Of a stretch of DNA of 64,000 nt, positions 3,050 to 63,150 are shown one piece after another; position 1 is the stretch's first letter; each line of letters starts with the position of its first letter. The notes under the pieces are model-generated. The model saw only the letters and a program-made list of their open reading frames with translations, was not told the DNA's origin and ran no database searches. This stretch comes from Allacma fusca (lineage: Eukaryota; Arthropoda; Collembola; Symphypleona; Sminthuridae), in assembly GCA_947179485.1 (NCBI GenBank), contig OX359245.1, forward strand, positions 39,915,067 through 39,979,066, read 5' to 3'. The position numbers and the translations under genes were made by a program.

Positions 3050-4410
3050 CAGATGTCCAAATGAAATGGCCTTCCTTCACGCTTTCAAGGGGCAATTTAA
3101 AAAAATGCCTTCCTTCTTCCTACATATGAATGAAACCTTTAAAATTATTTGCCCTTCCTTCAGCCTTCCTCCAAAAACAGCCCTCCTTCATTTCGAGCCT
3201 TAATTTATTGTAAAATTGTAGAAATGCTATCAAAACTACCACGAATTTTAAAAACGAAGTAGTCTTGATCAATGTTATTGTCACATGTGAATGTGATGTA
3301 TGGAAGTTCATACAATATTTAACAACATTAGGCGCTTCTATACATTGTATTTAATCCATAAGGCATCATCCACATTAAGTCTTTACTACATCAGAAAGCT
3401 TCTTCTAACCCGTCCTTCCTTCCCCTAACATTTTTAGTAAATTTTATGAAGACTTCCCTCAACCTTCGCGAAAAAATTCAGCCAACCTTCCATATTCCTT
3501 CTCTGGGCTGAAAAGTCGGTCAGCAGCCTTCAATAAAGCCTTCTTTAAAGGCTAGCCTTTGAATTAGTGCTGTCCATGGGAACAGGAGACACCCAGGTTT
3601 TTGGGAACAGGAACAGGAATGGGTGCGTACGGGAACACAAATTTTGTTCCCAAAACACTTTGGGAACGTTTGGGAACATAGAAATTGTTCCCAAAATATG
3701 GGAACAAAAGCGGGTTTGGGAACAGGAACAAAACGTGTACCTACCTGGTATTCACATGAAGTTTATAATATAAAAATACCTCAGAAATAAAATATTATTT
3801 TAAAAGTACGTCGCAACATGCCAAATAAGTCACTCTTTTGCACGTTATTATTTAGCAAAATAATAATTAATAATTAATTAACACGTTGCAAAAATGGAAC
3901 TCTGTGGAAATTAAACCCAAAATTGTAGCTCAGAAAACTCCAGCGTGCTCTTATCCTTGTTAGTTCAGCAAAAGTATATTGAAAGTGCTACTTATCTTAA
4001 CTAATTTCATTTTACTGTACTTTGCGCTGAGATGATTAATTTAATGACTGTTACTGAATTCTCATTTAAATTCGAGTAGCTAAAGGTATTGGAGATGGTG
4101 TACTGTTATTTACTTTTAATAAAGTCGATTTGATATTTGGTTTTTTAAATCGATGCATAAATAGAGTTACCTGGGGCATAAATGTGTAGGTTGTACTTTT
4201 CTGCTAGTCTTTAAGTACTTTTGGGAACAGGAACATTCCTGTTCCTGCAGGAACAGGTCCAGGAACTTTGAATTGGTACCCATTTTTATGGGAACAGGAA
4301 CAGGACCATTGCTTTAGTTCCTGAAAAAATGGGTACAGGTACAGGAACAGGTATGGGTACCAAATTTCCGTTCCCATGGACAGCACTACTTTGAATACTG
4401 GACATGTCTG
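3050..4410. mobile_element. CCTTCC-word hAT-like element, interrupted by a younger element
   Basis: The left end reads CAGATGTCC then AAATGAAATGG, and the right end is its degenerate complement, closing at TGGACATGTCTG. GCCTTCC words fill both arms. The element is split by the insertion at 3565-4388. No convincing 8-bp duplication remains outside it (TTTTGTAT against GCTTTGGT), so it is older than its guest. Confidence 0.6.
3565..4388. mobile_element. hAT-like element, GGGAACAGG word
   Basis: The termini TAGTGCTGTCCATGGGAAC and its exact complement (19 bp) are flanked by the perfect 8-bp duplication CTTTGAAT (3557-3564 and 4389-4396). GGGAACAGGAACA words lie beside the left end, and their complements recur before the right end in mixed order. 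No transposase frame is left, so it is non-autonomous. It lies in the right arm of the CCTTCC element. Confidence 0.92.
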
Positions 4411-9011: not shown

Positions 9012-10904
9012 ATGATACAGGACTTCCACTTTATTTTAAAAATATTCCTTCTTGTTTTATCTCACACCAAATATTATTCCCAAGTTCGTGGATGCTCATC
9101 CCTACAGTTAATTTACCAAGAAAATCAGGATTTACAATCAGACTTGGAACCTTTAAGGAACTTAAATTTTTCCGACTTCAAACTTTTCAATATGAAACAT
9201 TTGCCGACAAAACCGACCAATTTCAGCATTCAAGAAAGACATTTCCTACTACACTGCGACACAGTGCTGATAATCTTCCCCCCAAATGGTTATTTTCGTG
9301 AAACAGCTGATGAGGCAGCAGCATCTTTGGAAAAATACATTTTTATTTCTCTCCAGCCAAAGCAAGACTTATTCATCATAAAAATAGCTGGGGATTCCCC
9401 AAATTCACCAGAATGGAGTTGGTTTAGAAATAAATTAAGATTCTCTGGGAAAGTAAAGAGTGTGAGGGAAATGACATTGAGAGGAAATTCCAATAAGGCT
9501 GAGAGCATGCGAGAATTCCTGAGGAAGCATCACATCCGAGTGACTTCATTAGCAATCCAACCGTATTTACTGATGAGGGACCAAGTCCCAATTTCTGGAT
9601 GCTTCTACAATCTTGTGGTGGAGTCAGCACAGTTTTATAATTACTCCTATGACTTGGCCTATCCCAAATTCCCAGGGGTAGCTCAGCTTAGGAATGGCTC
9701 TTGGATTGGACCCATGGGACAAGTGACTCGAGGAGAGAAGGACCTTGTCCTAGGCACTGGCCGGACCTATGACCGGAATCCTTATTTAGATTACCCTTGC
9801 TTTGTGGAACTGACTGGGGTTAAATTTACGACGGCTCAGCCCAAAAAATCCTTAAACCCTGCTGCTATCCTTTATGTATTTCAGCCCCTCACATGGCTTT
9901 GCTTGGGTTTATCCTTTCTGGGGATTTTTATTATTTTCATGTTAATTACGGGCTCCGTCTCAGACAACGAGCTCAGCCTCCAGAATATGTTCCCAGTCTT
10001 TGAACTCACCTTCGATCCATTGATGGAGCAAAGTGCGAATGGCGTCTCAAAGGATAATTTACTAAGGTTCATTTACACCATTTGGATCCTCACTTCTGTC
10101 GTTATTGTCACTTTTTACAAGAGTGACTTCATTGCTTACGTCACGTACCCTCAGCATGAGGTTGTTCCGAGGACTTTCCGGGAATTGACCGAGAGGGATG
10201 ACTACAGCGTGGTCCTCATGAATCTGAACGCTGCTGCTGCCATGTTTTTCAACCGGACACGGAATCCTGTTTATATGAATATCAGGGATAGGATCCGTTT
10301 GGAAAGTAACTGGATCAAATGTATGGATGAGGCGGCTTTTTCCCCCAAGACCGTTTGTATTAATTTGGATTTTGCGGGGGTTAGTACCATCGCCAAGAAT
10401 TTTACTTTACATCGGTCCTTCCCTTGTGTCCGATTCTCATCCGACTCTGCTGTGGACTTCCAGTGGAGCATGGGATTTACGAGGAATTCCATATTTGTGG
10501 ATAGTTTCAGTGTCATTGTGGGCTATGTTAGGGATACGGGGTTGTTTCGGAAATGGATCCAGGATGTGTATGACCATGGGATCAGTGGGGGGATCAAGTG
10601 GCTCTTGAGTACTAAGGGGAAGATGTATAAGGAAATTAAAACTGCTTTGAAGGATCAAATGAGTATGGAAGTCATGCCTTTTGAAATTAAGAATATCATT
10701 GTTAGCTTTTTAATATGGGCCGGGGGCTTGAGCATTGGCGGCTTCACATTTTTCTGTGAGACTTGTATCACTCGGGGGATTAACATAGATATTTTAGCAA
10801 GGCATATATGGAAAGGAATTACTGGGCTTGCAAATTATTTACTTGTTGTAGGATTTGGGGTTACTATTCCTAGGGACATAAATGCACAGTTTAATTGGAT
10901 GTAA
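9012..10904 (+). CDS. Divergent ionotropic receptor, intronless, 630 aa
   Basis: A ligand-gated cation channel of the ionotropic glutamate receptor superfamily, expected in the plasma membrane of chemosensory neurons. In order it shows a hydrophobic signal-like N-terminus (1-27) and a short extracellular part with the first ligand-binding lobe (DQVPISGCFYN about 196, then a block ending GEKDLVLG). The first helix is PLTWLCLGLSFLGIFIIF (about 291-312). A re-entrant pore region (about 325-345) is followed by the second helix YTIWILTSVVIVTFYKSDF (about 353-372). The second lobe contains RDTGLFRKW (about 509), and the last helix lies near 562-585. The length is normal for divergent IRs. The ATG at 9012 is chosen because it gives the signal peptide. 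It is clearly more distant from the 23152 and 44418 genes than those are from each other. The ligand cannot be told from sequence. An AATAAATAAATA polyadenylation-like signal lies about 100 bases past the stop. Confidence 0.92.
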   Translation: MIQDFHFILKIFLLVLSHTKYYSQVRGCSSLQLIYQENQDLQSDLEPLRNLNFSDFKLFNMKHLPTKPTNFSIQERHFLLHCDTVLIIFPPNGYFRETADEAAASLEKYIFISLQPKQDLFIIKIAGDSPNSPEWSWFRNKLRFSGKVKSVREMTLRGNSNKAESMREFLRKHHIRVTSLAIQPYLLMRDQVPISGCFYNLVVESAQFYNYSYDLAYPKFPGVAQLRNGSWIGPMGQVTRGEKDLVLGTGRTYDRNPYLDYPCFVELTGVKFTTAQPKKSLNPAAILYVFQPLTWLCLGLSFLGIFIIFMLITGSVSDNELSLQNMFPVFELTFDPLMEQSANGVSKDNLLRFIYTIWILTSVVIVTFYKSDFIAYVTYPQHEVVPRTFRELTERDDYSVVLMNLNAAAAMFFNRTRNPVYMNIRDRIRLESNWIKCMDEAAFSPKTVCINLDFAGVSTIAKNFTLHRSFPCVRFSSDSAVDFQWSMGFTRNSIFVDSFSVIVGYVRDTGLFRKWIQDVYDHGISGGIKWLLSTKGKMYKEIKTALKDQMSMEVMPFEIKNIIVSFLIWAGGLSIGGFTFFCETCITRGINIDILARHIWKGITGLANYLLVVGFGVTIPRDINAQFNWM

Positions 10905-14449: not shown

Positions 14450-15138
14450 TAAGGCTTCCATCCGACCGGATAAATCGAATATCCGATCCGAATCCGATCC
14501 GAACCGAAATTTTCGGATAAGTTTTCTTAATATCCGATCCGACCGTTACGGATTCGGATAAAAATTTTATTCATCCGTATCCGATCCGAAATTTTCGGAT
14601 CGGATAAGTGCAGTATCCGATCCGATCCGCGGATATCCGAAATTATCCGAATTGATACCATTGGGTGATAAAAAAAAGTATTAGGAATTTTCACTGCAAA
14701 AATGCATTAGCTTTTTGCTACATCACAATATTAATAATTTTTGCATGCATTACGTCATGTGTACAAACTGAAGAAAAACTTTACAAACAACGCTGTAAAT
14801 GTGAAGCACAGAATTAAGAAGAAAACAAGTAAAAAGCGGCACAGTTACTCTTTGGACAAATTGTTGTTGCACACTTCGTTCTTATTGGTCGCTCGAACGC
14901 GCTAAAAATTTGATTTTCGGATATCCGTCGGATTATCCGATATTTATTATTTGTGATCCGAACCGATCGGATAAAGTCTTTTCCAAATCCGATCCGATCC
15001 GAATCCGATGACCGGATAAGGGGTACGTATCCGATCCGATCGGATTGTGTTCGGATCGGATAAGTATGTATCCGATCCGAAATTTCGGATATCCGATCTT
15101 CGGATATCCGAGGATCATCCGATCGGATGGAAGCCTTA
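14450..15138. mobile_element. hAT-like element, GGATCCGATCCGA word
   Basis: The ends are TAAGGCTTCCATCCGA and its complement, flanked by the perfect 8-bp duplication CACTGATC (14442-14449 and 15139-15146). Words built on ATCCGATCCGA and GGATATCCG fill both arms. The centre is unrelated AT-rich DNA. Confidence 0.92.
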
Positions 15139-16585
15139 CACTGATCAATTCCAGTGCAGTAAAAGTGCATGAGCATGCTCTTTCATGTACAAGATTTTTC
15201 TGTAGCATCCAAACGAATGAGCTCTCTGTATTAAGAGCACCCGTCATGAGTAATTTGAATTTGAATCTTAAGGATTCTGTCTATTGTGACATGCTCGCAC
15301 TAGGAGATGATTTAACACTAACGTAAACAGGAATCTGTACGATTCTTTCTCCGCTACAGGAAATGTTTACAAGTGGACCTCATTTATAGTGTAGTGTGAT
15401 AGTAGTGAGGGCTCCTCACAATTTCAAGTAGTAATTGCAACTGTCAATTTCAAATACAATTTCAATTCAATTTCAATTGATGGTAATCTGCAAGTTGTAA
15501 ATTGAAATCAATTTCAAATAAAAATGGCTTTTTAGTTGTTGATTCAATTTCAATTACAAATCAACTATCAATTCAGGCATTATAATTGGGAACTTCCACA
15601 ATTTCAATTTCAAATAGTAGCATTGTCAAAAATTGATAGTTGAAGTTGATAATTGACAACTAGTAAATGTTAAAGCAAGGAAGCGCGCAAAGGAAGAAAT
15701 GTGTAATTAAAGCGCGGAGATTACTCAACTTCCTACAGCAAATGACATCTCGCCGACATAATTGCTTGTAATACAAAAGCAACTAAATACTGAAAAAGGC
15801 GCTACGATCCAAACCTTAGTGGGCAATCATCAATAATCGAATCCGAAGATCTGCTTGATATTCAAATGAAGAGATGTAAATCCAGGGATGAAATATAGCG
15901 ATATCTTTCAGAGCTCCCTACAAAATCTACAGATCCGAAAATGGTGTTCTTAATCTGCTGTTGGAAGGTTTTACATTTATGAATACGTGAGAAATGATTT
16001 TTTTCGTAACCGCTTTTTGAAAAAATACATTGCATACATATTTAGTTTGTCTTACTGTAGGAGAATTAAAATGCTTATCCTATTTTTCCAGGATGCGAAG
16101 AGATGTTCTATGAGTTTCTGCTGCTGGCATCATGTATAATATGTTTGTTTTCCCCTGCTAATGACATGTTGACCTCAAACAGGCTTTGCATGCTTGCTGT
16201 GGCTATAAAAATTTGTCATTGCCATAAATGTTACCTCAAGTTTAAAAATCTTGTAGAACATTTAAAGCAAAAATCTGTTGTTGTCAACAGGTTACTTCTT
16301 GGGATGCTTAAAATTGTTAATAAATTATTACTTTACAACCAGAATGAGTTGTAATTTCATAGCAGGCAAATTAAACAGATGTAGCCAACAATATTTTTGT
16401 CGAATTTATCTTCACACCCATTTTTTCATTTAATACACACGGGTAGGATGTTAAACTACAAATCCAATTTCAATTCAATTTCAATCCAATTTAATCCCAA
16501 TTTCAAGTCAATTTTAACTTGCGTGAGTTTTGAAAGTTGTAATTGACAACTTCAACTATTGATGCTGCTACTTGATTATTACAAA

Positions 16586-17502
16586 CAAGGATGGGAATCG
16601 GAATCGGTATCCGAATCGGAATTATATTCGAAAATTTGAGTATTTTAATTCATATTGGAATCCGAAATAATTCCCAGGAAGTATTTTAATTAAAAATTGC
16701 ATTCAAAAAATGTTTTGAAATCGGAATTGGTATTCAAATATTTTTGAATGAATTCCGATTAAGTAAAGTATTGTTTTCAATGGCACATTCTCATTGTTCA
16801 GTGTACATACTTAAATATAAAAAAATTGTCGTAATTTTTACTTACAACGTAAAGCTAATCAAAGAGCATTGGCGAACGTTTTCTTCATTCGAAATGAACA
16901 TGCTTCCGCATTCCACTTAAAATAAAGGGGAATTATTAGCACTTGTAATAGGTTTTTAACGGTTGTGCTCAAAACTATTGTTTGTCCTACACGTTAATTA
17001 CTCAAGTAATTTACATAAATCGCTGATACTAAACTACTAACTAAAAATTTTTTTATGTAACTAAAGATTTTTTATGTAACTAAAGATTTTTTTATGTAAC
17101 TAAAGATTTTTTTATGTAACTAAAGATTTTTTTAGGTAACTACAAATGGGTCAAAACACAATTAGTGAGTTTGGAGTTCAAGTATCAGTTGAAAGTATTT
17201 TTCAACACTTAAATTGATACTTAACGACCTGCAGGGGAAACTAGATTCCCAAAATATTGATGATATCATGTTTCTAAGGTCGAATTTTTTCCATAATTAA
17301 ATTCTTTGTATTTTCAGTATACTAGGAGTATTCAAATAAATATTCAAATCGGAATTCATAATGAACGAATACTCGAGGATATTTAAATCCGTATTAGAAT
17401 TCATATTTTTCAGTATTGCTATAGGTATTTTAAATCGGAATTCTTCGCCTTGAATATTATAATTCGAATTATAATTCATACTTTTCCGATTTCCCATCCT
17501 TG
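16586..17502. mobile_element. hAT-like element, GGAATCGGTATCC word, nested
   Basis: Ends CAAGGATGGGAATCGG and TCCGATTTCCCATCCTTG are flanked by the perfect duplication ATTACAAA (16578-16585 and 17503-17510). The left array is only about two word units long. This is the compact sister of the satellite-bearing copy at 27215-30871, with which it shares most of its interior. Confidence 0.92.
17038..17137. repeat. Minisatellite of five about 20-bp units inside the nested element
   Basis: Five near-identical units of the form TAACTAAAGATTTTTTTATG. The sister element (around 30440-30515) has fewer and more diverged units, so the number grew in this copy. Confidence 0.85.
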
Positions 17503-17799
17503 ATTACAAATTGATTATTTGTCTAGTATTTGATTGATTAATAAGCAATTACAATTTACCACTACAAACTGAATTGAAAATTCAATTTCAATTACAAGTT
17601 CAATTTCAACTAACTCAATAAATTGAGTTGTGAGGAGCCCTAATAGCAGTGGTACATTTTTTAAATGTTTTTGCCCAATGCCCCAATTGCCAAGTGTAGA
17701 TACTTATTGTTAATCTAACGAGCTATTATACTTCACAATCAGTCCTTCGGTAAAAAGTAATTTAGAGCTGACAATGAGTGCAAGACAGCGATGAATATT

Positions 17800-18787: not shown

Positions 18788-19265
18788 TAGTGTTTCTGAA
18801 CGGTACCAAAACATGGACTCGACCCGACTCGTTTTCCCGAACCGAAAAAAATCCCAATTCTGTTCCCAAAACCGGAACCGATATTTTCGAGTCCGGGACA
18901 TTTTTGGCTTCCCGGAACCGATCCGGAAAATAAAAGCGGTTCCCGAACCGGTTCCGGTTCCTTTCCGAACAGACAGAAAATGTATATGATTCATTTTTAT
19001 GGAAGCCAACATTGTGTCGCCTTTTCAAATGATAGTTGACAAATGCTGGCCAAATGCAAGTTTCGCGTTTTCATCCAAAACGGCAGCTTTAACAAACCAT
19101 TCCCGAAAACTTTCGGTTTTGATTTTTGTACCCGAAACCGGACCGAAATTTGACGGTTCATAAACCGATGACCCGAAACCGGACCGAAATGTAACGGTTC
19201 TTTAAAACGTTGACCCGAAACCGAACCGGAACCTCGGGAATTCCCGATACCGAACAAAAACACTA
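18788..19265. mobile_element. hAT-like element, GGAACCGGAACC word, copy 1
   Basis: The ends TAGTGTTTCTGAACGGTACC and the related complement (GGTATCGG on the other end) are flanked by the perfect duplication GTTCTTAT (18780-18787 and 19266-19273). Arms are GGTTCCGG and CCGAAACCGG words. It is the same family as 42227-42721, in opposite orientation. Confidence 0.92.
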
Positions 19266-20172: not shown

Positions 20173-21239
20173 CAAGGTAACATTTTCAGATGGTACACGT
20201 GGATTCAAACAAAGCATAGCACACTTTTTGGTACTCACCTAGTATGTTTCAAAACTCATGTAACTCGAGTGCATTTTGCCCCGTTCTCCTAGGACACGTC
20301 ACAAAAGTTTCAAAATTTAAAACGGTACCACAGGGACCTGTCTTTTAGAAACAAATCAATGTTAAATCCCATAAGGATTTTGAATTTTTAAAAGTCGGTG
20401 AAATTTTGGTTTTTACTATTTCAAGGAAATTCAAGTTTTAACGTATATATCCTTCGACAAAATTCCCCCAAAAGTAATCCCTCCATCATGGCGCATCCGC
20501 ATGTATCTAGTCGCAAATATATATTCACTCCGTATTTACATACGAATGAACTAGACTATTGAGTTTTGCCTTATGATTTACACATGTACAACATTAGTAA
20601 ATTACAAATTAAACTAAATTAGCCCCCAGCAAAAATATCGTCACATTTTATTCAAAAGTAATCTCATGGCGTATTTAGAAGAAATATGAGACACAAAATT
20701 GCAGACACTTCTAAGCGTAAGAAACAAATTGGTCTATTAGATCGTTAAGCCCAACAAGAAAGATTGACTAATCGTGCCATGCCCAGAGAAAATGGCCGAC
20801 AGACACACATGCCTGTCTCCAACAGACCTTTGCTGTCATAAAAGTCACCGCAGCCCAAAATTGGAACTTGGAAGTCAGTATTGACTGACTGACAATGAGA
20901 ATACACCTCCAATACAAACTCAATCATATAGTGAGAAGAACGAAATACATTACCTTTGAAAGATCCTTGAATGAAATAATGTAAGAGCTTGCAGAAGTTT
21001 AAAAAATAATATCACATTAGTTTTTAAATAAATATGTTAAGCATAACTTACAAAAATAACAAATTATGTCCCAGCAAAATTATCCTGACTATGAGTGAAA
21101 ATTTATATCAATGTGTTCAATCTCTCCCATATTATAATTTGAAATTCAATGACGAAAAGAATCGATTCAACATATCATCTACATATAGTCACCATGGGAT
21201 ATAGGCCATTGGGAAAGGCTCCAACACATTAACATTATT
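20173..21239. other. No gene recognised
   Basis: Weakly resembles the flank at 27100-27180 around 20690-20760 (AAATTGGTCTA then TAG-TCGTT). The minus ORF 20745-20927 has no recognised domain. Confidence 0.4.
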
Positions 21240-21857
21240 ACATGTACTTAATAATAAACTATAGAAAACAATCTATACTCGTGGGATTGGCCTTCCTGCA
21301 ACAGAAATTCCCTTCACACACCAAAGGAACTCTCTCCCGAAATAATGGATAATTCCAATACCCGGGTTTAAAATTTCTGACAATCAGTGCTGAACAAGAA
21401 GACACATTGCAACAGAGAGGAGCAGCCGCACGCGATTGTGGAAGTTACGCCTGCTCACAATCTGTGCCCACTTCAAGGCTCAATAATTAGGGCTACATAT
21501 TTCACATCAGCCCGTCACATTTCTAAAATATCAGTTGAAGATTGGTAACTCTTTCGGTAGTTATTCCGAGGTTCTACTTTACGTAACTAATTTCAGCGTG
21601 CACTTCATCCGATAATAGCATATAATTTCTACATGCTAATAGTCTAGAAAATTATGCTGAAAAAATGATTCGATAAACTCTACCCTCGAATTAAGTACAC
21701 GTGCAAATAATTACTCGTATATAAACAAATTTTAAGAATAGACGACAATTTATGGATATCCCAATGGTCGCCTATACCATAAGGTCTACTATAAGCTTCC
21801 CAATATTTATGTCTAATCTATCAACTTGAAAAATAAATGACCAATGGATATCCCAGA

Positions 21858-22852: not shown

Positions 22853-22859
22853 ATCCCAG

Positions 22860-23060
22860 TCAATAAAATTGTTCAGAATAATTGCACGTGCAGGTCACTT
22901 TTATTGTATATTGATAAAGTGCACTTTGATTCGTCAATTTTATTTGTCCTTATTACAGAAGCTTATAATTTCGTTTACTTATAAGATCACAATATTTCGT
23001 AGTACTGCATAGGTTATTAGTTGTCATCGGTTTCTGTTCTGGGTCAAACTATGTCGAAGT
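22860..23060 (+). promoter_or_regulatory. Candidate IR promoter block
   Basis: AATTGTTCAGAATAATTGCA, CGTGCAGGT, a run ending AAGTGCACTTTGAT and the GTACTGCATAG motif are kept before both the 23152 and 44418 genes. The first motif also heads the pseudogene at 32850. Conservation may only reflect recent duplication. Promoter activity is inferred from position. Confidence 0.4.
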
Positions 23061-23151
23061 AAACGTGTATATCCATTTCAAGAAACGTAACTACAGGAAT
23101 ACAAGTGTCAGCTTAAATATTGTCAAAAAACATCAAGCTTATTTCGTAATT

Positions 23152-25083
23152 ATGACAGCATCTTCTCTAGTCCCGGTCAACACCTTTAATATTTTCGCAT
23201 TTATAATAGTATTGCCATTGACTATAATTTCTGCATATGAATCTACCTCCTCCAAGATCATTTCCAGTCCCAGTTCAATTAAAGAATTGTTGCAATGCTC
23301 CCTTCAAATAATCTACGAGGATCGAAGTGATATTGAGAAACTCCAAACCGAAATCAGCAATTCAGCAATGTTTTCCAATTTTCGTATTCAAAATTTAAAT
23401 AATTACACTTCGAAAACGCTAAAGCGTTCCACGCCGCGCTTCCATACCAATTGTAACACAGTGGTTTTACATTTGAAAGAAATGTCCCTTTCCCTGAAAA
23501 ATTACGTTTTGAGTTCACTCCTGCCACAAAGTAACTATTTCATATTTATTGTACCATCCAAATCTCAAATCAACAACAATCATTTAAATAATATAAAACT
23601 AAAACTACGGTACTTCATGGTCATCAAAAATTTTAATGAGTTTCTGAATAATAAAAATAGATTTTTATTTTCAACGAGGGAGTTCATGAAAAACGAGCAT
23701 CTTCGTACGACAATAATAGTTGTTGACCCGTTCATCCTTTTCAAAGACCAAATACCAGTGGGTGGATGCTACTATAATATCCTTCTGGAGTCATCCATAC
23801 TTTACAACTTCACTTACGACATGGAGTACCCAAAATTCAAAGGGATGGTCCAGTTAAAAAACGGGACTTGGATTGGTCAAGCAGGGCAAGTGATTCGGGG
23901 TGAGAAAGATGTGATTTTAGGTTCAGCCCAGACATTTGCCCGATACAAGTACTTCGACTTCCCAACCATCCTAGATGTCTCTGGTATAAAATTCATTACT
24001 GCACTTCCCCGCAAGACTTTGGACTGGGCAGCAGTGTTGTACATTTTCCAACCCCTCACCTGGATTTGCTTAAGTCTCTGCTGCTTTGGAATTTTCACAC
24101 TGGTCTATACATCCCAGCTTTTCTTTTACCACAGTAACCAGAGGAACTGTCAAAATATTACCGCCATTTTGGGAATAACTTTGAACCCTTTAATTGAACA
24201 CGGTGCCACGGTGTCAACATTCAGCTTAGTCAGGGTCATTTACACCTTCTGGATCCTTGGTTGCATAGTTATCGTCACATTCTTCAAGAGTGATTTCGTA
24301 GCTTACATAACTTATCCCAAGCATGAAGAAGTTCCCAGGACTTTCTTCGACTTATCCCAACGACCGGAATATAATATCAAATTGCTGCAAATGAACGCTG
24401 CAGCCACGACTTTTTTCAATACAACCACCAGTCCCGTTTACTCAAAGTTACGTCAAAGAATGACACTGGAGAAGGATTGGTTACAGTGCATTTATGCTTC
24501 TGCCTTTGAGCCGAAGACTGTTTGCATTACTTTTGATTTCTATGGAGTGAGTACCATTGCCCAGAACCTCACGTGGCATAGATCCTTCTCAAATGTCCAG
24601 TTCTCTACGGACTATGCCGTGGATTTTCAGTGGAGCATGGGCTTCACGAAAAATTCCAAGTTTTTGGGGACCTTCAATGAAGTAGCAAGATTTGTAAGGG
24701 ATACTGGACTCTTCCGGAAATGGAAGGAAGACTTTTATGAGAGCATGCGGCAGGATGGAATTGGATGGTTGAAGCAAACTAAGGGAAGGGTTTATGAGAG
24801 GATTTTGAATTCTTTGGCGGATCAGTTAAACTTGGAAGTGGTTCAGTTTATATTGAAGAATGTACTCGTAGCGTTCATCATTCTGACTGTAGGTTTAAGC
24901 ATTGCAAACTTAGTATTTCTGTGGGAACTAGGGGTGAGTATCTCGTTGGTTTTAAACTTCTCGTTTGTCTCGTTCTCGTTTCTGAAAAAAATACGAAAAC
25001 GTTATATTTTGATAACGAGAGTAGCGAGAGTAAGCAACGCACGAGACAAACAAAACAGGGCAAAAACATGGTATTTGTGTTGA
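23152..25083 (+). CDS. Divergent ionotropic receptor with transposon-derived C-terminus, 643 aa
   Basis: An intronless ligand-gated channel of the IR family. The ATG at 23152 is preferred over the in-frame one at 23065 because it matches the start of the paralogue at 44418 (MTASSL) and gives the signal peptide. The first helix lies near 301-322 (PLTWICLSLCCFGIF), the second near 361-389 (YTFWILGCIVIVTFFKSDF), the second lobe includes RDTGLFRKWKEDFY, and the last helix lies near 569-592. After LVFLWE the frame enters a hAT-like element (24929) and reads 51 element-encoded residues. These include a hydrophobic run (VSISLVLNFSFVSFSFL) and a basic tail. All channel parts are intact, so a protein is plausible, but the changed cytoplasmic end may impair it. 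A 506-bp stretch is identical to the 44418 gene. Confidence 0.88.
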   Translation: MTASSLVPVNTFNIFAFIIVLPLTIISAYESTSSKIISSPSSIKELLQCSLQIIYEDRSDIEKLQTEISNSAMFSNFRIQNLNNYTSKTLKRSTPRFHTNCNTVVLHLKEMSLSLKNYVLSSLLPQSNYFIFIVPSKSQINNNHLNNIKLKLRYFMVIKNFNEFLNNKNRFLFSTREFMKNEHLRTTIIVVDPFILFKDQIPVGGCYYNILLESSILYNFTYDMEYPKFKGMVQLKNGTWIGQAGQVIRGEKDVILGSAQTFARYKYFDFPTILDVSGIKFITALPRKTLDWAAVLYIFQPLTWICLSLCCFGIFTLVYTSQLFFYHSNQRNCQNITAILGITLNPLIEHGATVSTFSLVRVIYTFWILGCIVIVTFFKSDFVAYITYPKHEEVPRTFFDLSQRPEYNIKLLQMNAAATTFFNTTTSPVYSKLRQRMTLEKDWLQCIYASAFEPKTVCITFDFYGVSTIAQNLTWHRSFSNVQFSTDYAVDFQWSMGFTKNSKFLGTFNEVARFVRDTGLFRKWKEDFYESMRQDGIGWLKQTKGRVYERILNSLADQLNLEVVQFILKNVLVAFIILTVGLSIANLVFLWELGVSISLVLNFSFVSFSFLKKIRKRYILITRVARVSNARDKQNRAKTWYLC

Positions 25084-26902: not shown

Positions 26903-27214
26903 GAAATTTTTGCTTTTAAAATTGTAATGCCGACTTTGTCGCTGCACTTTCTATTCCTTTCACGTATTATTCTAATTGAATCAAAAGGTGGTATTTTGAT
27001 TAAATTACTATATTTATATTATTATTACTATATTTATATTATTATTATTTCAATTATTGCTGACATAATTGTGCATTGCCTATTTAGACGAAATATGTGT
27101 CAAAAAACTTCAAGCGTTTCCAAGTGTAAACAAAATTGGTCTACTAGGTCGTTTAGGTCAACAATAAAAATGCACCGATTTAAGCAAACTTCGTTTGCAG
27201 GTGCAGGAAAATGA

Positions 27215-30083
27215 AGCTTCGGAATCGGTATTCGAATCGGAATCGGTATCCGAATCGGAATCGGTATCCGAATCGGAATCGGTATCCGAATCGGAATCGG
27301 TATCCGAATCGGAATCGGTATCCGAATCGGAATCGGTATTCGAATCGGAATCGGTATCCGAATCGGAATCGGTATCCGAATCGGAATCGGTATCCGAATC
27401 GGAATCGGTATCCGAATCGGAATCGGTATCCGAATCGGAATCGGTATCCGAATCGGAATCGGTATCCGAATCGGAATCGGTATCCGAATCGGAATCGGTA
27501 TCCGAATCGGAATCGGTATCCGAATCGGAATCGGTATCCGAATCGGAATCGGTATCCGAATCGGAATCGGTATCCGAATCGGAATCGGTATCCGAATCGG
27601 AATCGGTATCCAAATCGGAATCGGTATCCAAATCAGAATCGGTATCCGAATCGGAATCGGTATCCGAATCGGAATCGGTATAAAAATCGGAACCGGTATC
27701 CAAATCGGAATCGGTATCCGAATCGGAATCGGTATCCGAATCGGAATCGGTATCCGAATCGGAATCGGTATCCGAATCGGAATCGGTATCCGAATCGGAA
27801 TCGGTATCCGAATCGGAATCGGTATCCGAATCGGAATCGGTATCCGAATCGGAATCGGTATCCGAATTGGAATCGGTATCCGAATCGGAATCGGTATCCG
27901 AATCGGAATCGGTATCCGAATCGGAATCGGTATCCGAATCGGAATCGGTATCCGAATCGGAATCGGTATCCGAATCGGAATCGGTATCCGAATCGGAATC
28001 GGTATCCGAATCGGAATCGGTATCCGAATCGGAATCGGTATCCGAATCGGAATCGGAATCCGAATCGGAATCGGTATCCGAATCGGAATCGGTATCCGAA
28101 TCGGAATCGGTATCCGAATCGGAATCGGTATCCGAATCGGTATCCGAATCGGAATCGGTATCCGAATCGGAATCGGTATCCGAATCGGAATCGGTATCCG
28201 AATCGGAATCGGTATCCGAATCGGAATCGGTATCCGAATCGGAATCGGTATCCGAATCGGAATCGGTATCCGAATCGGAATCGGTATCCGAATCGGAATC
28301 GGTATCCGAATCGGAATCGGTATCCGAATCGGAATCGGTATCCGAATCGGAATCGGTATCCGAATCGGAATCGGTATCCGAATCGGAATCGGTATCCGAA
28401 TCGGAATCGGTATCCGAATCGGAATCGGTATCCGAATCGGTATCCGAATCGGAATCGGTATCCGAATCGGAATCGGTATCCGAATCGGAATCGGTATCCG
28501 AATCGGAATCGGTATCCGAATCGGAATCGGTATCCGAATCGGAATCGGTATCCGAATCGGAATCGGTATCCGAATCGGTATCCGAATCGGAATCGGTATC
28601 CGAATCGGAATCGGTATCCGAATCGGAATCGGTATCCGAATCGGAATCGGTATCCGAATCGGAATCGGTATCCGAATCGGAATCGGTATCCGAATCGGAA
28701 TCGGTATCCGAATCGGAATCGGTATCCGAATCGGAATCGGTATCCGAATCGGAATCGGTATCCGAATCGGAATCGGTATCCGAATCGGAATCGGTATCCG
28801 AATCGGAATCGGTATCCGAATCGGAATCGGTATCCGAATCGGAATCGGTATCCGAATCGGAATCGGTATCCGAATCGGAATCGGTATCCGAATCGGAATC
28901 GGTATCCGAATCGGAATCGGTATCCGAATCGGAATCGGTATCCGAATCGGAATCGGTATCCGAATCGGAATCGGTATCCGAATCGGAATCGGTATCCGAA
29001 TCGGAATCGGTATCCGAATCGGTATCCGAATCGGAATCGGTATCCGAATCGGAATCGGTATCCGAATCGGTATCCGAATCGGAATCGGTATCCGAATCGG
29101 AATCGGTATCCGAATCGGAATCGGTATCCGAATCGGAATCGGTATCCGAATCGGAATCGGTATCCGAATCGGAATCGGTATCCGAATCGGAATCGGTATC
29201 CGAATCGGAATCGGTATCCGAATCGGAATCGGTATCCGAATCGGAATCGGTATCCGAATCGGAATCGGTATCCGAATCGGAATCGGTATCCGAATCGGAA
29301 TCGGTATCCGAATCGGAATCGGTATCCGAATCGGAATCGGTATCCGAATCGGAATCGGTATCCGAATCGGAATCGGTATCCGAATCGGAATCGGTATCCG
29401 AATCGGAATCGGTATCCGAATCGGAATCGGTATCCGAATCGGAATCGGTATCCGAATCGGAATCGGTATCCGAATCGGAATCGGTATCCGAATCGGAATC
29501 GGTATCCGAATCGGAATCGGTATCCGAATCGGAATCGGTATCCGAATCGGAATCGGTATCCGAATCGGAATCGGTATCCGAATCGGAATCGGTATCCGAA
29601 TCGGAATCGGTATCCGAATCGGAATCGGTATCCGAATCGGAATCGGTATCCCAATCGGAATCGGTATCCGAATCGGAATCGGTATCCGAATCGGAATCGG
29701 TATCCGAATCGGAATCGGTATCCGAATCGGAATCGGTATCCGAATCGGAATCGGTATCCGAATCGGAATCGGTATCCGAATCGGAATCGGTATCCGAATC
29801 GGAATCGGTATCCGAATCGGAATCGGTATCTGAATCGGAATCGGTATCCGAATCGGAATCGGTATCCGAATTGGAATCGGTATCCGAATCGGAATCGGTA
29901 TCCGAATTGGAATCGGTATCCGAATCGGAATCGGTATCCGAATCGGAATCGGTATCCGAATCGGAATCGGTATCCGAATCGGAATCGGTATCCGAATCGG
30001 AATCGGTATCCGAATCGGAATCGGTATCCGAATCGGTATCCGAATCGGAATCGGTATCTGAATCGGAATCGGTATCCGAATCG
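27215..30083. repeat. Satellite of 18-bp GGTATCCGAATCGGAATC units
   Basis: About 160 near-perfect units, with a few 12-bp short units (for example near 28135, 28437, 28570, 29014 and 30030) and scattered point changes at the edges. The unit is the subterminal word of the hAT element at 16586, and the array continues without a break into that element's interior at 30084. Because the unit length is divisible by three and lacks stops, several frames stay open for hundreds of codons. These are not genes. Confidence 0.97.
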
Positions 30084-30871
30084 GAATTATATTCGAAAAT
30101 TTGAGGATTTTAATTCATATTGGAATCCCAAATAATTCCCAGGAAGTAGTTTAATTGAAAATTGCATTCAAAACAAATTTTTGGAATCGGAATTGGTATT
30201 CAAATATTTTTTAATGAATTCCGATTAAAATAAAAAAAATTGCCACAATTTTTACTTACAACGTAAAGCTAATCAAAGAGCATTGGCGAACGAATTCTTC
30301 AGTAGAAATGAACATGCTTCCGCATTCTACTTAAAATAAAGGCGAATTATTAGAACTTGTCATAGGTTTTTAACGGTTGGCATCAAAACTATTGTTTGTC
30401 CTACACGTTAATTACTCAAGTAATTTAAATCGTTGATACTAAACTACTAACTAAAGAGTGTTTTATGTAACTAAAGATTATTTTAGGTCACTAAATTTTT
30501 TTAGGCAACTACAAATGGGCCGAAACACAATTAGTGATTTTGGAGTTCAAGTATCAGTTGAACTTATTTTTTAACACTTAAATTGATACTTAATGACCTG
30601 CGGGGGAAACTAGCTTCCCAAAATATTGATGATATCATGTTTCTAAGGTTGAATTTTTTCCGTAATTAAATTCTTTGTATTTTCAGTATACTAGGAGTAT
30701 TCAAATAAATATTCAAATCGGAATTCATAATGAACGAATACTCGAGGATATTTAAATCCGTATTAGAATTCATATTTTTCAATATTGCTATAGGTTTTTT
30801 AAATCGGAATTCTTCGCCTTGAATATTTTAATTCGAATTAAAATTCATATTGTTACGATTTCCCATCCTTG
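30084..30871. mobile_element. Interior and right end of the hAT-like element carrying the satellite
   Basis: Sequence from ATTATATTCGAAAATTTGAG onward is the homologue of 16620-17502 and ends in the same terminus, ATTTCCCATCCTTG. The left terminus CAAGGATGGG is absent before the satellite at 27215, so the element is left-truncated. No target duplication can be found. Confidence 0.88.
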
Positions 30872-31056
30872 GTTCCTGGTGGATTCCTTAAAGCACACTC
30901 GGTGTTGGTTACGAAAGTGTACATTGTCGGGATCAGATTTCCTTCAATTAATACCAATTGTGTTCTCGGTGGAGTAAACATATTGCTTGGTTTGCCTTAC
31001 AAGAATCCTCGTTGTCAGCACCAGACCCGAAAAAATTAGTAACTAAGTATACAGTA

Positions 31057-42226: not shown

Positions 42227-42721
42227 TAGTGTTTCTGTTCGGTATCGGGAATTCCCGAGGTTCCGGTTCGGTTTCGGTTCCGGTACGGTTTCGGGTCAAC
42301 GTTTTAAAGAACCGTTACGTTTCGGTCCGGTTTCGGGTCATCGGTTTATGAACCGTCAAATTTCGGTCCGGTTTCGGGTACAAAAATCAAAACCGAAAGT
42401 TTTCGGGAATGGTTTGTTAAAGCTGCCGTTTTGTATGAAAACGCGAAACTTGCATTAGGCCAGCATTTGTCAACTATCATTTGAAAAGGCAATACAATTT
42501 TGGCTTCCATAAAAATGAATCATATACATTTTCTGACTGTTCGGAAAGGAACCGGAACCGGTTCGGGAACCGCTTTTATTTACCGGATCGGTTCCGGGAA
42601 ACCAAAAATGTCCCGGACTCGAAAATACCGGTTCCGGTTTTGGGAACAGAATTGGGATTTTTTTCGGTTCGGGAAAACGAGTCGGGACGAGTCCATGTTT
42701 TGGTACCGTTCAGAAACACTA
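42227..42721. mobile_element. hAT-like element, GGAACCGGAACC word, copy 2
   Basis: The ends TAGTGTTTCTGTTCGG and GGTACCGTTCAGAAACACTA are flanked by the perfect duplication CTCTCATA (42219-42226 and 42722-42729). The copy is nearly collinear with the inverse of 18788-19265. Confidence 0.93.
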
Positions 42722-42729
42722 CTCTCATA

Positions 42730-43479
42730 CCTCGGGTACTAGTGGTTTGCTGACAAAAATTCTTTCAGTTTTTTAATCTGCTGCTGAAATATTGCATGTG
42801 AACCAATGTTTATTAAAAACCGCCTAGAGCTATTACAGTAAACGTAACTATTATTTTATTTTATTTTCAGTTATCAGCAGTTATTTTTAGTTCATGAGTG
42901 CTTCAGGTGTCATTTGTACTCATTTTTAGGCTGCACCTGTGAATACACTCAACCGGGGAATGGCAGCAGTACTGAAAACTCTACCAATATTTTATTTGTG
43001 ACGATTAGTCATCGTTAATTTTTATATTAAAGATAATAGTGCGAACTTGCTGTTATGCGCATTTTATTTCTTCATTCCTACCTCCCTCATTTTGTCCATG
43101 TACTTCTGAATCTAAGACCAGGATCCGGCTAATTCCAATCCCTTGTCCATTACATTTGAGCAATTTCCGGAATTTTTTAGTTTGAGCGTTGAACAGAAAT
43201 TGACTAGGAATATTAAGAAAAGGTTTGAACAGGACTAGATTAGACTAGCGCGAAGAGATTCGTAGAAGAATATACTACAATTCAGTAGGCAAGGACAACC
43301 CTCCGAAAGAATGGATAGACCAGACTAGTCAACCTCTTGAGAACCAGTCCATGTTCGCATCGACAACCGTTTCTTTCATGGATTATTCGAATTGAATCAA
43401 AAGCTGGTATTTTGAGTAAGCTATTATATTTATATCATTATTATATTACTATTTATATGATTGATGACGTTGATTATGC
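42730..43479. other. No gene recognised
   Basis: Contains ACTAG and GACTAG words at 43199-43330 that echo those at 39920-39975 and 40770-40880. Confidence 0.4.
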
Positions 43480-44417
43480 TATGAACTTAATAATAAATTA
43501 TAGAAAACAATTTATAATCGTGGGACAGACCTTCCAGCAACAGAAATTCACGTCACACACCACAGGATCTCTCTCCCGAAATAATGGAGAATTCCAATAC
43601 CCGGGTTTAAAACTTCTGACAATGAGTGCTCACCTAGAAGATAAACAAGGCAACAGAGTAGCACCGCGCGATCGTCGAATTTACGCCTGCTCAGTGCTCA
43701 CAGCCTGAGCCACATCCATGCTCATTAATTAGGGCTACATCTGGCACATCAGCCCCTCACATTTGTAAAATATTATTTGGAGAATTGTACCTCTTTCGAT
43801 AATTATTCGGAGGTTCTGTATTTATTTACATAATTATTTTCTGCGTGGACTTTTTCCAAAAAATGTCTTACAGACAACCGGATCCGACAGAATATAATTA
43901 TTGCTAAATGCTAATAGTCTAGTAAATTATGCTAAAAGAATGATTGGTTAGCCGCCACACGCGAATTAAGTACATGTAAATAATCTCTCCTGTATAAACA
44001 AATGTTAATGATAGATGACTATTTATGGATATCCCAATGGTCTGCCTATGTAATAATGTCTATTATAAGCTTTCCAATCGATGTCTAATTTATCAACTTG
44101 AAAAACAAATGACAGCAATAGATATGTCAGCCTATGAAATTGTTCAAATTAATTGTACGTGCAGGTAAGTTGTACTGTCAATTAATAAAGTGTACTTTGA
44201 TCCGCACTTTAATTTTGTTGGGCCTTATTACAAAAGCTTATAATTTTGTTTACTTATCCGAACATAATATTTCGCAGTACTGCATAGTTTATTCGTTGGC
44301 AACCGTTTCCGTTCTGGGTCAACCTATGTCAAAGTAAACGTGTATATCCATTGTAACCACAAGAATACAAGTGTCACCTTAAATATTGTCAAAAAACAGT
44401 AAATTTGTTTCGTAATT
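43480..44417. repeat. Duplicated IR upstream block, copy C
   Basis: The uninterrupted version of the block (compare 21240-23151 and 31560-32849). It shows the empty site of the 31983 element. The last 280 bases contain the candidate IR promoter motifs. Confidence 0.75.
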
Positions 44418-46274
44418 ATGACAGCATCTTCTCTGGAACTGGTCAAAACCTGTAATATTTTCACATTTATAATTATATTGCCTTTGCCTATAATTTCTGC
44501 ATATAAATCTACCTCCTCCAAGATCATTTCCAGCCCCAGATCAATTACAGAATTGTTGCAATGCTCCCTTCAGATAATCTACGAGGATAGAAATGATATT
44601 GATAAACTCCAAACGGAAATCAGCAATTCGGGAGTGTTTCCAAATTTTCGTATTCAAAATTTAAATTATACTTCGAAAAAGTTCAAGCGTTCTACGCCAC
44701 GCTTCCATACCAATTGCAACATAGTAGTTTTACATTTGAAAGAAATATCCCTTTCCCTCAAAAATTACGTTTTAAGTTCACAAAGTAACTACTTCATATT
44801 TATTGTACAATCCAAATTTCAAATCAACCATAATCATTTAAATAATTTAAAACAAAAACTACGATACTTTATGGTCATCACAAAATTCAATGAGTTGCTG
44901 AGCAATCAAAGTAGATTTTTATTCTCAACGAGGGAGTTCATGAAAAACGAGCATCTTCGTACGACAGTAATAGTTGTTGACCCATTCATCCTTTTGAAAA
45001 ACCAAACACCAGTAGGTGGATGTTACTATAATATTCTCCTGGAGTCATCTCAACTTTACAACTTCACTTATGACATAGAGTACCCAAAATTCAAAGGGAT
45101 GGTCCAGTTAAAAAATGGGACTTGGATTGGTCAAGCAGGGCAAGTGACTCGAGGTGAGAAAGATGTGATTTTAGGTTCAGCCCAGACATTCGCCCGATAC
45201 AAGTACTTCGACTTCCCAACCATCCTAGATGTCTCTGGTATAAAATTCATAACTGCACTTCCCCACAAGACTCTGGACTGGGCAGCAGTGTTGTACATTT
45301 TCCAGCCTCTCACCTGGGTTTGTTTGAGTATCTGTTGCTTTGGAATTTTCACACTGGTCTATGCATCCGAACTTTTCTTTTACCACAGTAACCAGAGGAA
45401 CTGTCAAAATATTACCGCCATTTTGGGAATAACTTTGAACCCTTTAATTGAACACGGTGCCACGGTGTCAACATTCAGCTTAGTCAGGGTCATTTACACC
45501 TTCTGGATCCTTGGTTGCATAGTTATCGTCACATTCTTCAAGAGTGATTTCGTAGCTTACATAACTTATCCCAAGCATGAAGAAGTTCCCAGGACTTTCT
45601 TCGACTTATCCCAACGACCGGAATATAATATCAAATTGCTGCAAATGAACGCTGCAGCCACGACTTTTTTCAATACAACCACCAGTCCCGTTTACTCAAA
45701 GTTACGTCAAAGAATGACACTGGAGAAGGATTGGTTACAGTGCATTTATGCTTCTGCCTTTGAGCCGAAGACTGTTTGCATTACTTTTGATTTCTATGGA
45801 GTGAGTACCATTGCCCAGAACCTCACGTGGCATAGATCCTTCTCAAATGTCCAGTTCTCTACGGACTATGCCGTGGAATTTCAGTGGAGCATGGGCTTCA
45901 CGAAAAATTCCAAGTTTTTGGGGACCTTCAATGAAGTAGCAAGATTTGTAAGAGATACTGGACTCTTCCGGAAATGGAAAGAAGACTTTTATGAGAGCAT
46001 GCGGCAGGATGGAATTGGATGGTTGAAGCAAACTAAGGGAAGGGTTTATGAGAGGATTTTGAATTCTTTGGCGGATCAGTTAAACTTGGAAGCGGTTCCG
46101 TTTATATTGAAGAATGTACTCGTAGCGTTCATCATTCTGACTGTAGGTTTAAGCATTGCAAACTTAGTATTTATGTGGGAACGCTGCAGTCATTCTTTCA
46201 AATTCCTAGAGAAAATCCCCGGAATTCCAAAGAAACGCCGCCAGATATTTTCACGGGTTATTTTACTACGGTAG
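44418..46274 (+). CDS. Divergent ionotropic receptor, intronless, 618 aa
   Basis: An intact IR-family channel with signal peptide MTASSLELVKTCNIFTFIII, extracellular region, first helix near 297-318 (PLTWVCLSICCFGIF), pore region, second helix near 357-385 (YTFWILGCIVIVTFFKSDF), second lobe with RDTGLFRKWKEDFY and last helix near 565-588. It ends in a basic tail (CSHSFKFLEKIPG to VILLR) that represents the undisturbed C-terminus of the pair. It differs from the 23152 gene throughout the first half but is identical at DNA level over 45372-45877. Ligand residues cannot be judged by eye. Expected in chemosensory dendrites, as for the family. Confidence 0.93.
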   Translation: MTASSLELVKTCNIFTFIIILPLPIISAYKSTSSKIISSPRSITELLQCSLQIIYEDRNDIDKLQTEISNSGVFPNFRIQNLNYTSKKFKRSTPRFHTNCNIVVLHLKEISLSLKNYVLSSQSNYFIFIVQSKFQINHNHLNNLKQKLRYFMVITKFNELLSNQSRFLFSTREFMKNEHLRTTVIVVDPFILLKNQTPVGGCYYNILLESSQLYNFTYDIEYPKFKGMVQLKNGTWIGQAGQVTRGEKDVILGSAQTFARYKYFDFPTILDVSGIKFITALPHKTLDWAAVLYIFQPLTWVCLSICCFGIFTLVYASELFFYHSNQRNCQNITAILGITLNPLIEHGATVSTFSLVRVIYTFWILGCIVIVTFFKSDFVAYITYPKHEEVPRTFFDLSQRPEYNIKLLQMNAAATTFFNTTTSPVYSKLRQRMTLEKDWLQCIYASAFEPKTVCITFDFYGVSTIAQNLTWHRSFSNVQFSTDYAVEFQWSMGFTKNSKFLGTFNEVARFVRDTGLFRKWKEDFYESMRQDGIGWLKQTKGRVYERILNSLADQLNLEAVPFILKNVLVAFIILTVGLSIANLVFMWERCSHSFKFLEKIPGIPKKRRQIFSRVILLR

Positions 46275-62466: not shown

Positions 62467-63150
62467 CTATGGAGCTGACGTTGAAACACTGCTAGGCGCT
62501 GCTGGAGATGTTGACCTTCCCTTTGACCCGGTGGCTAAAGTTGTTGAATCACTACTAGGCGCTGCTGGAGTTGTAGGCCTTCCCTTTGACCCGCTTGCTA
62601 AAGTTGTTGAATCACTGCTAGGCGCTGCTAGAGTTGTTGGCCTTCCCTTTGACCCGGTTGATAAAGTTGTTGAGTCACTGCTAGGCGCTGCTGGAGTTGT
62701 AGGCCTTCCCTTTGACCCGCTTGCTAAAGTTGTTGAGTCACTACTAGGCGCTGCTTGAGTTGTAGGCCTTCCCTTTGACCCGCTTGCTAAAGTTGTTGAA
62801 TCACTACTAGACGCTGCTAGAGTTGTTGGCCTTCCCTTTGACCCGCTTGCTAAAGTTGTTGAATCACTGCTAGGCGCTGCTAGAGTTGTTGGCCTTCCCT
62901 TTGACCCGGTTGATAAAGTTGTTGAGTCACTGCTAGGCGCTGCTGGAGTTGTAGGCCTTCCCTTTGACGGAACTGGTATGGCTCTTAAGCTCAATCTTAA
63001 ACCAGTTAATCTCTTAGGCTCAATAACTTCGTTCGAAATATTGTCGTCGTAGGAGTGAAAAATGACTTCGGGTGCATTTTCAATGTTAGTCTTTTCGACG
63101 GTTCTAGTCAGACAAACCCCAATAAGGGATACGAAAATGATCAACTTCAT
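62467..63150 (-). CDS. Secreted protein with 21-residue Ser/Thr/Pro repeats, 227 aa
   Basis: The start MKLIIFVSLIGVCLTRT is a signal peptide. Residues about 18-62 are non-repetitive and acidic. From about 62 there are eight tandem units of about 21 residues with consensus SKGRPTT-AAPSSDSTTL plus TG or SG, the last one degenerate and truncated (KGRSTSPAAPSSVSTSAP). Each unit has one Lys-Gly-Arg step and a Ser/Thr-rich stretch suited to O-glycosylation. Mucin, cuticle or gland secretion is a guess, and no family is recognised. Units form two patterns that alternate, so blocks of several units seem to have been duplicated together. Single exon. An overlapping + frame is a by-product of the repeat. 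Confidence 0.75.
   Translation of the reverse strand: MKLIIFVSLIGVCLTRTVEKTNIENAPEVIFHSYDDNISNEVIEPKRLTGLRLSLRAIPVPSKGRPTTPAAPSSDSTTLSTGSKGRPTTLAAPSSDSTTLASGSKGRPTTLAASSSDSTTLASGSKGRPTTQAAPSSDSTTLASGSKGRPTTPAAPSSDSTTLSTGSKGRPTTLAAPSSDSTTLASGSKGRPTTPAAPSSDSTTLATGSKGRSTSPAAPSSVSTSAP

Follow-up and report, generated by a model that had tools for sequence, protein, structure and literature searches.

Repeats inside transposon ends are already an accepted source of satellite DNA. In Drosophila virilis, as far as the consulted parts of the report describe them, tandem repeats in the ends of Tetris (TIR-220) gave rise to homogeneous arrays of kilobase size, and disruption of the element was proposed to accompany the expansion (PMC4079207). 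Repeats in the long arrays were 94% alike, compared with 87% for those inside complete elements (PMC4079207). In Xenopus tropicalis, miDNA4 and Xstir (from the Xmix MITE) are repeats internal to a MITE that vary in copy number (PMC9659126, PMC12628747). Under the model after Scalvenzi and Pollet, in the sections consulted, MITE-internal repeats become satellite arrays once the terminal segments decay (PMC12628747). Short tandem repeats are also tied to MITEs in Lepidoptera, where (GTCY)n repeats are described, by title, as mobile microsatellites hitchhiking on the element (PMC9659126).

The array found in the springtail Allacma fusca resembles Tetris in that tandem repeats of a transposon end reached kilobase size, and it differs from each system. 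Tetris has a 220-bp unit, is a foldback element and accounts for 610 repeats in 69 contigs, whereas the Allacma array has an 18-bp unit, belongs to a putative hAT-type MITE and occupies one locus. The miDNA4 and Xstir repeats are reported satellite DNAs, compared with one array only here (PMC9659126, PMC12628747). The Lepidoptera repeats are mobile with their element; the long Allacma array sits in one copy that lacks an end. A limited search of the literature on satellites, hAT elements, MITEs, subterminal repeats, minisatellites and springtails, with sources consulted in part, did not turn up this case, a result that carries little weight.

The kind of event is thus already known, and the locus illustrates it cleanly, though not for the first time. 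It is a single-locus, early-stage birth of a tandem repeat from a transposon end in Collembola: very probably, the subterminal words of a tip-less relic grew in situ, through slippage or unequal exchange, into a single-locus minisatellite of 2.9 kb. The general picture is unchanged, because repeats of this origin were already accepted as a satellite source. The short-run state is kept at many other copies, an unexpanded copy lies at a distance of 10 kb, and the array has diverged edges around a homogenised core, and so the locus lends itself well to testing models of how arrays are born. In Allacma fusca the array could also serve as a length marker.

Structure of the array and its passage into the element

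The following features were delimited in the window, the whole stretch of 64,000 nucleotides that was analysed.

16586..17502, + strand: compact copy of the element, with words AATA (about 1.3 units) and a perfect 8-bp target duplication, ATTACAAA
27169..27218 (50 bp), + strand: head of another dispersed repeat, called X, joined directly to the array on its left (genome similarity search)
27218..30083, + strand: 18-bp minisatellite, unit GAATCGGAATCGGTATCC (A-A-T words), about 160 units (Tandem Repeats Finder 27219-30087, score 5367; word parse)
28062..29651, + strand: substitution-free core of the array, 1,590 bp, which holds five of the six 12-bp units (variant-free gap 28056-29652)
30084..30871, + strand: interior and right end of the putative hAT-type MITE, from GAATTATATTCG to the right terminal repeat (alignment to the compact copy)
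30872..30879, + strand: GTTCCTGG, the expected right copy of an 8-bp target duplication and its only + strand occurrence within the window

Tandem Repeats Finder gave the array a period of 18 bp, 161.4 copies and 96% matches over 2.87 kb, in agreement with an earlier reading made from the sequence only, which had described about 160 units of 18 bp in 2.9 kb. Each unit consisted of three 6-bp words in the order A-A-T, where A is GAATCG and T is GTATCC. Parsed from position 27222, the array contained 477 words: 317 were nearest GAATCG, to which tied words were assigned, and 160 were nearest GTATCC. Fifteen were variant words, with 17 substitutions in total.

Intervals from one T word to the next were 18 bp in 152 cases, 12 bp in six cases and 36 bp in one case; in the single 36-bp interval the middle T word was GAATCC. 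The 12-bp intervals followed T words at 28128, 28428, 28566, 29010, 29058 and 30024, and all six were on the 6-bp phase, which bears out the suggestion that 12-bp units display a shorter sub-period. The 6-bp phase was kept throughout the array, and its length changed only in multiples of 6 bp. With a unit inside the range of roughly 10-100 bp, a size in kilobases and a discrete locus, the array has the form of a minisatellite.

Higher-order repeats were sought at lags of 6-396 bp in steps of 6 bp and rejected, with values above 0.97 at 18 bp (0.981) and 36 bp (0.972) only. Long open frames ran through the array in several frames on both strands, reflecting a stop-free repeat, and were not taken as genes. 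Stretches of 54 nt from the array folded no better than shuffles on either strand (z of -0.72 and -0.12), and the instability of the array is therefore not explained by a hairpin. No function of the array is indicated.

HiFi reads are long compared with a 2.9-kb array, and the ultra-low-input HiFi protocol may include PCR. These two points pull in opposite directions on whether the length of the array is wrong or invented through assembly or amplification, which we consider very unlikely. The Allacma fusca assembly was, per the consulted part of its report, made with hifiasm from 80-fold HiFi reads prepared by the ultra-low-input protocol, and tandem arrays could slip if PCR was included (PMC10427803). 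Against such an artefact stand the depth of coverage, assembly with hifiasm, the shortness of the array relative to the reads, a window that is without any N, and the irregular variant words and 12-bp units that mark stretches of the array.

On its right side the array ran without a break into the interior of the element, as had been claimed: window positions 16595-17505 and 30060-30874 aligned at 84% identity. The array copy thus belongs to the same family as the compact copy, which sits unexpanded. The compact copy had been credited with about two units of the same word; the word is the same, and the count is lower, as listed above. The right terminal repeat of the array copy was intact. The reverse complement of GTTCCTGG occurred in the window at 4259 and 53527.

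The element family and its left-end words

A search for the family scored 40 of 609 first-look candidates and returned 54 matches spread over 40 places. Two of these places lay in the window; the other 38 loci were fetched for analysis, several of them duplicates of one insertion. Duplications of 8 bp with the target preference nTnnnnAn are hAT features, and short terminal inverted repeats such as those found here are hAT-like. The commonest ends were CAAGGATGGGAATCGG on the left and CAAGGATGGGAAATCGG on the right (reverse complement). Among 25 distinct insertions, the left and right 8-mers were equal at seven or eight of eight positions in 21; in the remaining four they were equal at 5, 4, 4 and 3 positions. 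Mismatched pairs, used as a control, were equal at seven or more positions in 4 of 600 cases. Paired ends were lacking at six fetched loci, which fell outside this count (L060, L061, L062, L065, L075 and L085). T was found at position 2 in 21 of the 25 insertions and A at position 7 in 19. The 8-mer beside the array copy, GTTCCTGG, fits this pattern at position 2 and departs from it at position 7. Judged by these features, the family is classed as a putative non-autonomous hAT-type MITE, with copies mostly of 790-910 bp.

The 393-Mb assembly contained 206 left ends CAAGGATGGGAATCGGAATCGG at no more than one mismatch (106 forward, 100 reverse). Positions were listed for 100 of these, and words were parsed at 33, comprising 32 fetched loci and the copy at 16586, with one mismatch allowed per word and duplicates of insertions included. 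The parsed ends read AATAA (20), AA (6), AAA (2), ATAA (2), AATA (2) and AAAA (1). One fetched locus was left unparsed as one word had lost a base (L052), and five showed no left end (L060, L061, L062, L075 and L085). Words A and T were present at the parsed left ends, so that the unit of the array is indeed the subterminal word of the family, as the sequence-only reading had stated. A comparison of unit counts across copies, which that reading had proposed, gave at the 33 parsed ends a range of 2-5 words, commonest A-A-T-A-A, versus 477 in the array.

Four fetched loci were duplicates of one insertion, with their flank in common (one difference, in L079) and an identical interior start. Two of them read AATAA (L079, L082) and two ATAA (L080, L081). 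Because AATAA is the commonest state, a word was more probably lost here than gained.

Several features of individual copies were noted. Four loci (L054, L055, L056 and L057, on C12, C8, C12 and C9) had flanks and the 8-bp duplication in common; it therefore seems that the element is carried there by a larger dispersed repeat. Left ends at C10:63115134, 63118492 and 63121850 were spaced by exactly 3,358 bp, which suggests a 3.36-kb tandem duplication carrying the element. A different 18-bp array, with 25.6 copies of the unit ACTCAAGTTTGAAATGGA, was found in the flank of one copy (L069:2571-3030). Inside the element, a 20-bp AT-rich repeat reached 15.1 units at L082:1768-2066, 5.3 units at window 17038-17142 and 2.4 units at window 30448-30495. 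The element is repeat-prone at two places, and only the subterminal words of the array copy are known to reach kilobases.

The whole assembly (392,743,791 bases in 91 contigs) was searched for further arrays. An exact 38-mer of the array occurred 125 times, and all 125 occurrences were inside the array. A 25-mer probe spanning two units (two T words at 18-bp spacing, no more than two mismatches) matched at 153 places, again all in the array, with no reverse-strand match across the 393 Mb. Reversed-pattern controls gave no match across the same 393 Mb, and chance is thus excluded. No second place with two units at 18-bp spacing and up to two mismatches, and no array of intermediate length, was found in the assembly. 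The array is therefore a single-locus minisatellite and not a satellite family. The sequence-only reading had seen a transposon end converted into satellite DNA: birth from the element end stands, and the word satellite, which implies many arrays or high copy number, does not apply to 153 of 153 places in one 2.9-kb array. The opposite outcome named in that reading, a satellite found widely with no link to the element, was looked for and was likewise answered by these matches. Overall, the assembly has about two hundred left ends of the family and one expanded run; any array that was collapsed or left unassembled would escape this view.

The left edge, the age of the array and its probable course

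Neither CAAGGATGGG, the left terminal repeat, nor a left-hand copy of GTTCCTGG was present beside the array. In their place lay the first 50 bp of X. Of 138 candidates in the search for X, 40 were scored; 38 of the 40 places returned matched only the 27169-27218 stretch, at 88-98% identity, and the remaining two were the window itself and 43370-43462, which matched a different part of the query. Ten of the 38 copies were fetched, and all ten departed from the window sequence at the array junction. Beyond the junction they continued into other sequence that, by eye, was mutually similar at least initially in 10 of 10. A paralogue of the DNA to the left of X (20665-20764, 75% identity) matched up to 27171, no more than 3 bp from the start of X.

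The array copy is therefore a truncated relic: it has the right end only, rather than both ends with a target duplication, and a fragment of X is fused where the left tip was lost. Neither the missing left tip and left duplication nor the fusion to X had a part in the sequence-only reading. The reciprocal half of such a rearrangement, GTTCCTGG joined to a left tip, was sought in the genome at up to three mismatches; 11 places were returned, none exact, the best with one mismatch at C9:21943098. Paralogous stretches bracket the 27.2-31.7 kb region on the left (20665-20764 and 43370-43477) and on the right (21285-21580 and 43524-43826). They stop short of the flanks of the element, and the pre-insertion (empty) site was thus not recovered. 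We infer, as the simplest account of the left edge, an end-joining deletion of most of X, the intervening DNA and the left tip.

A left edge that adjoins an unrelated repeat is also what a captured array might show, and so the array could have come from a wider genomic satellite family that joined the element and was not born from it. This is extremely unlikely: the assembly holds no other array, the unit is the subterminal word of the element itself, and X ran into the unit in none of the 10 copies fetched.

The age of the array was approached through its substitutions. When 774 interior sites of the array copy were compared with the majority of 23 copies, 31 (4.0%) differed, with 1.8% private. 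The 23 comprised both copies in the window plus 21 of the 38 fetched loci, picked as near-complete and non-duplicate; as the chosen copies have subfamily structure, the 1.8% private rate is a rough clock. The left 840 bp of the array contained 12 substitutions (1.4%) and the right 432 bp contained five (1.2%). In the core no substitution was observed, compared with 28.6 expected at 1.8%, and a variant-free gap this long arose in a fraction of 8e-5 of 100,000 random placements of the 15 variant words. The core is thus without substitutions yet has length variants, as it contains all but one of the six 12-bp units.

The contrast between a clean core and edges near the private divergence of the element indicates that the core turned over recently; unequal exchange or conversion would be expected to leave such a clean middle between older edges. 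Either an array of modest length existed early and its core was renewed later, or growth itself came later. As the divergence of the edges is close to that of the element, some of the array may date to near the insertion.

That closeness (1.2-1.4% versus 1.8%) would also suit an array that was already long in a mobile copy and was carried to this place, with the tip lost afterwards. Sisters of a mobile long-array copy might then be expected, whereas the assembly has no second two-unit place, and we regard such an arrival as quite unlikely.

Growth in place is accordingly the preferred reading. A non-autonomous element, hAT-type by its features, would have inserted at the locus, and its left subterminal run, normally 2-5 words, would have grown there to 477 words. 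Most likely, replication slippage would have started the growth, and unequal sister exchange or conversion would have taken it further. The separate end-joining deletion would have taken the left tip together with its target duplication, as well as most of the neighbouring X, leaving the first 50 bp of X, and may have come before or after the growth.

If it came before, loss of the left tip could itself have released the expansion of the word run. The words may be held to 2-5 as putative transposase binding sites in a working end; alternatively, overgrown ends may be lost on excision, and a run whose tip was deleted would be free to grow. Such a release fits the observation that the sole expanded run in the assembly is on a tip-less copy (n=1), and we hold it to be unlikely.

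Other features of the window

Window positions 26831-62226 contained eleven tRNA-Pro (TGG) genes, every one on the + strand and several of them in repeated blocks of 75-93% identity. Three long open frames resembled ionotropic receptors: 9012-10904, 23065-25083 and 44418-46274. Two of the three had sub-threshold Pfam matches to ligand-gated channels. Window positions 22857-24928 and 44128-46182 were 92% identical, and by this similarity the pair is likely a recent duplication.

Repeats containing CCGAAACCGG or ATCCGATCCG words were located at 18788-19265 and 42227-42721 (inverted, 94% identical) and at 14470-15200; these may be further elements with subterminal words. A 63-bp repeat of 7.8 copies was found at 62480-62968, within an open frame of 227 amino acids on the minus strand.
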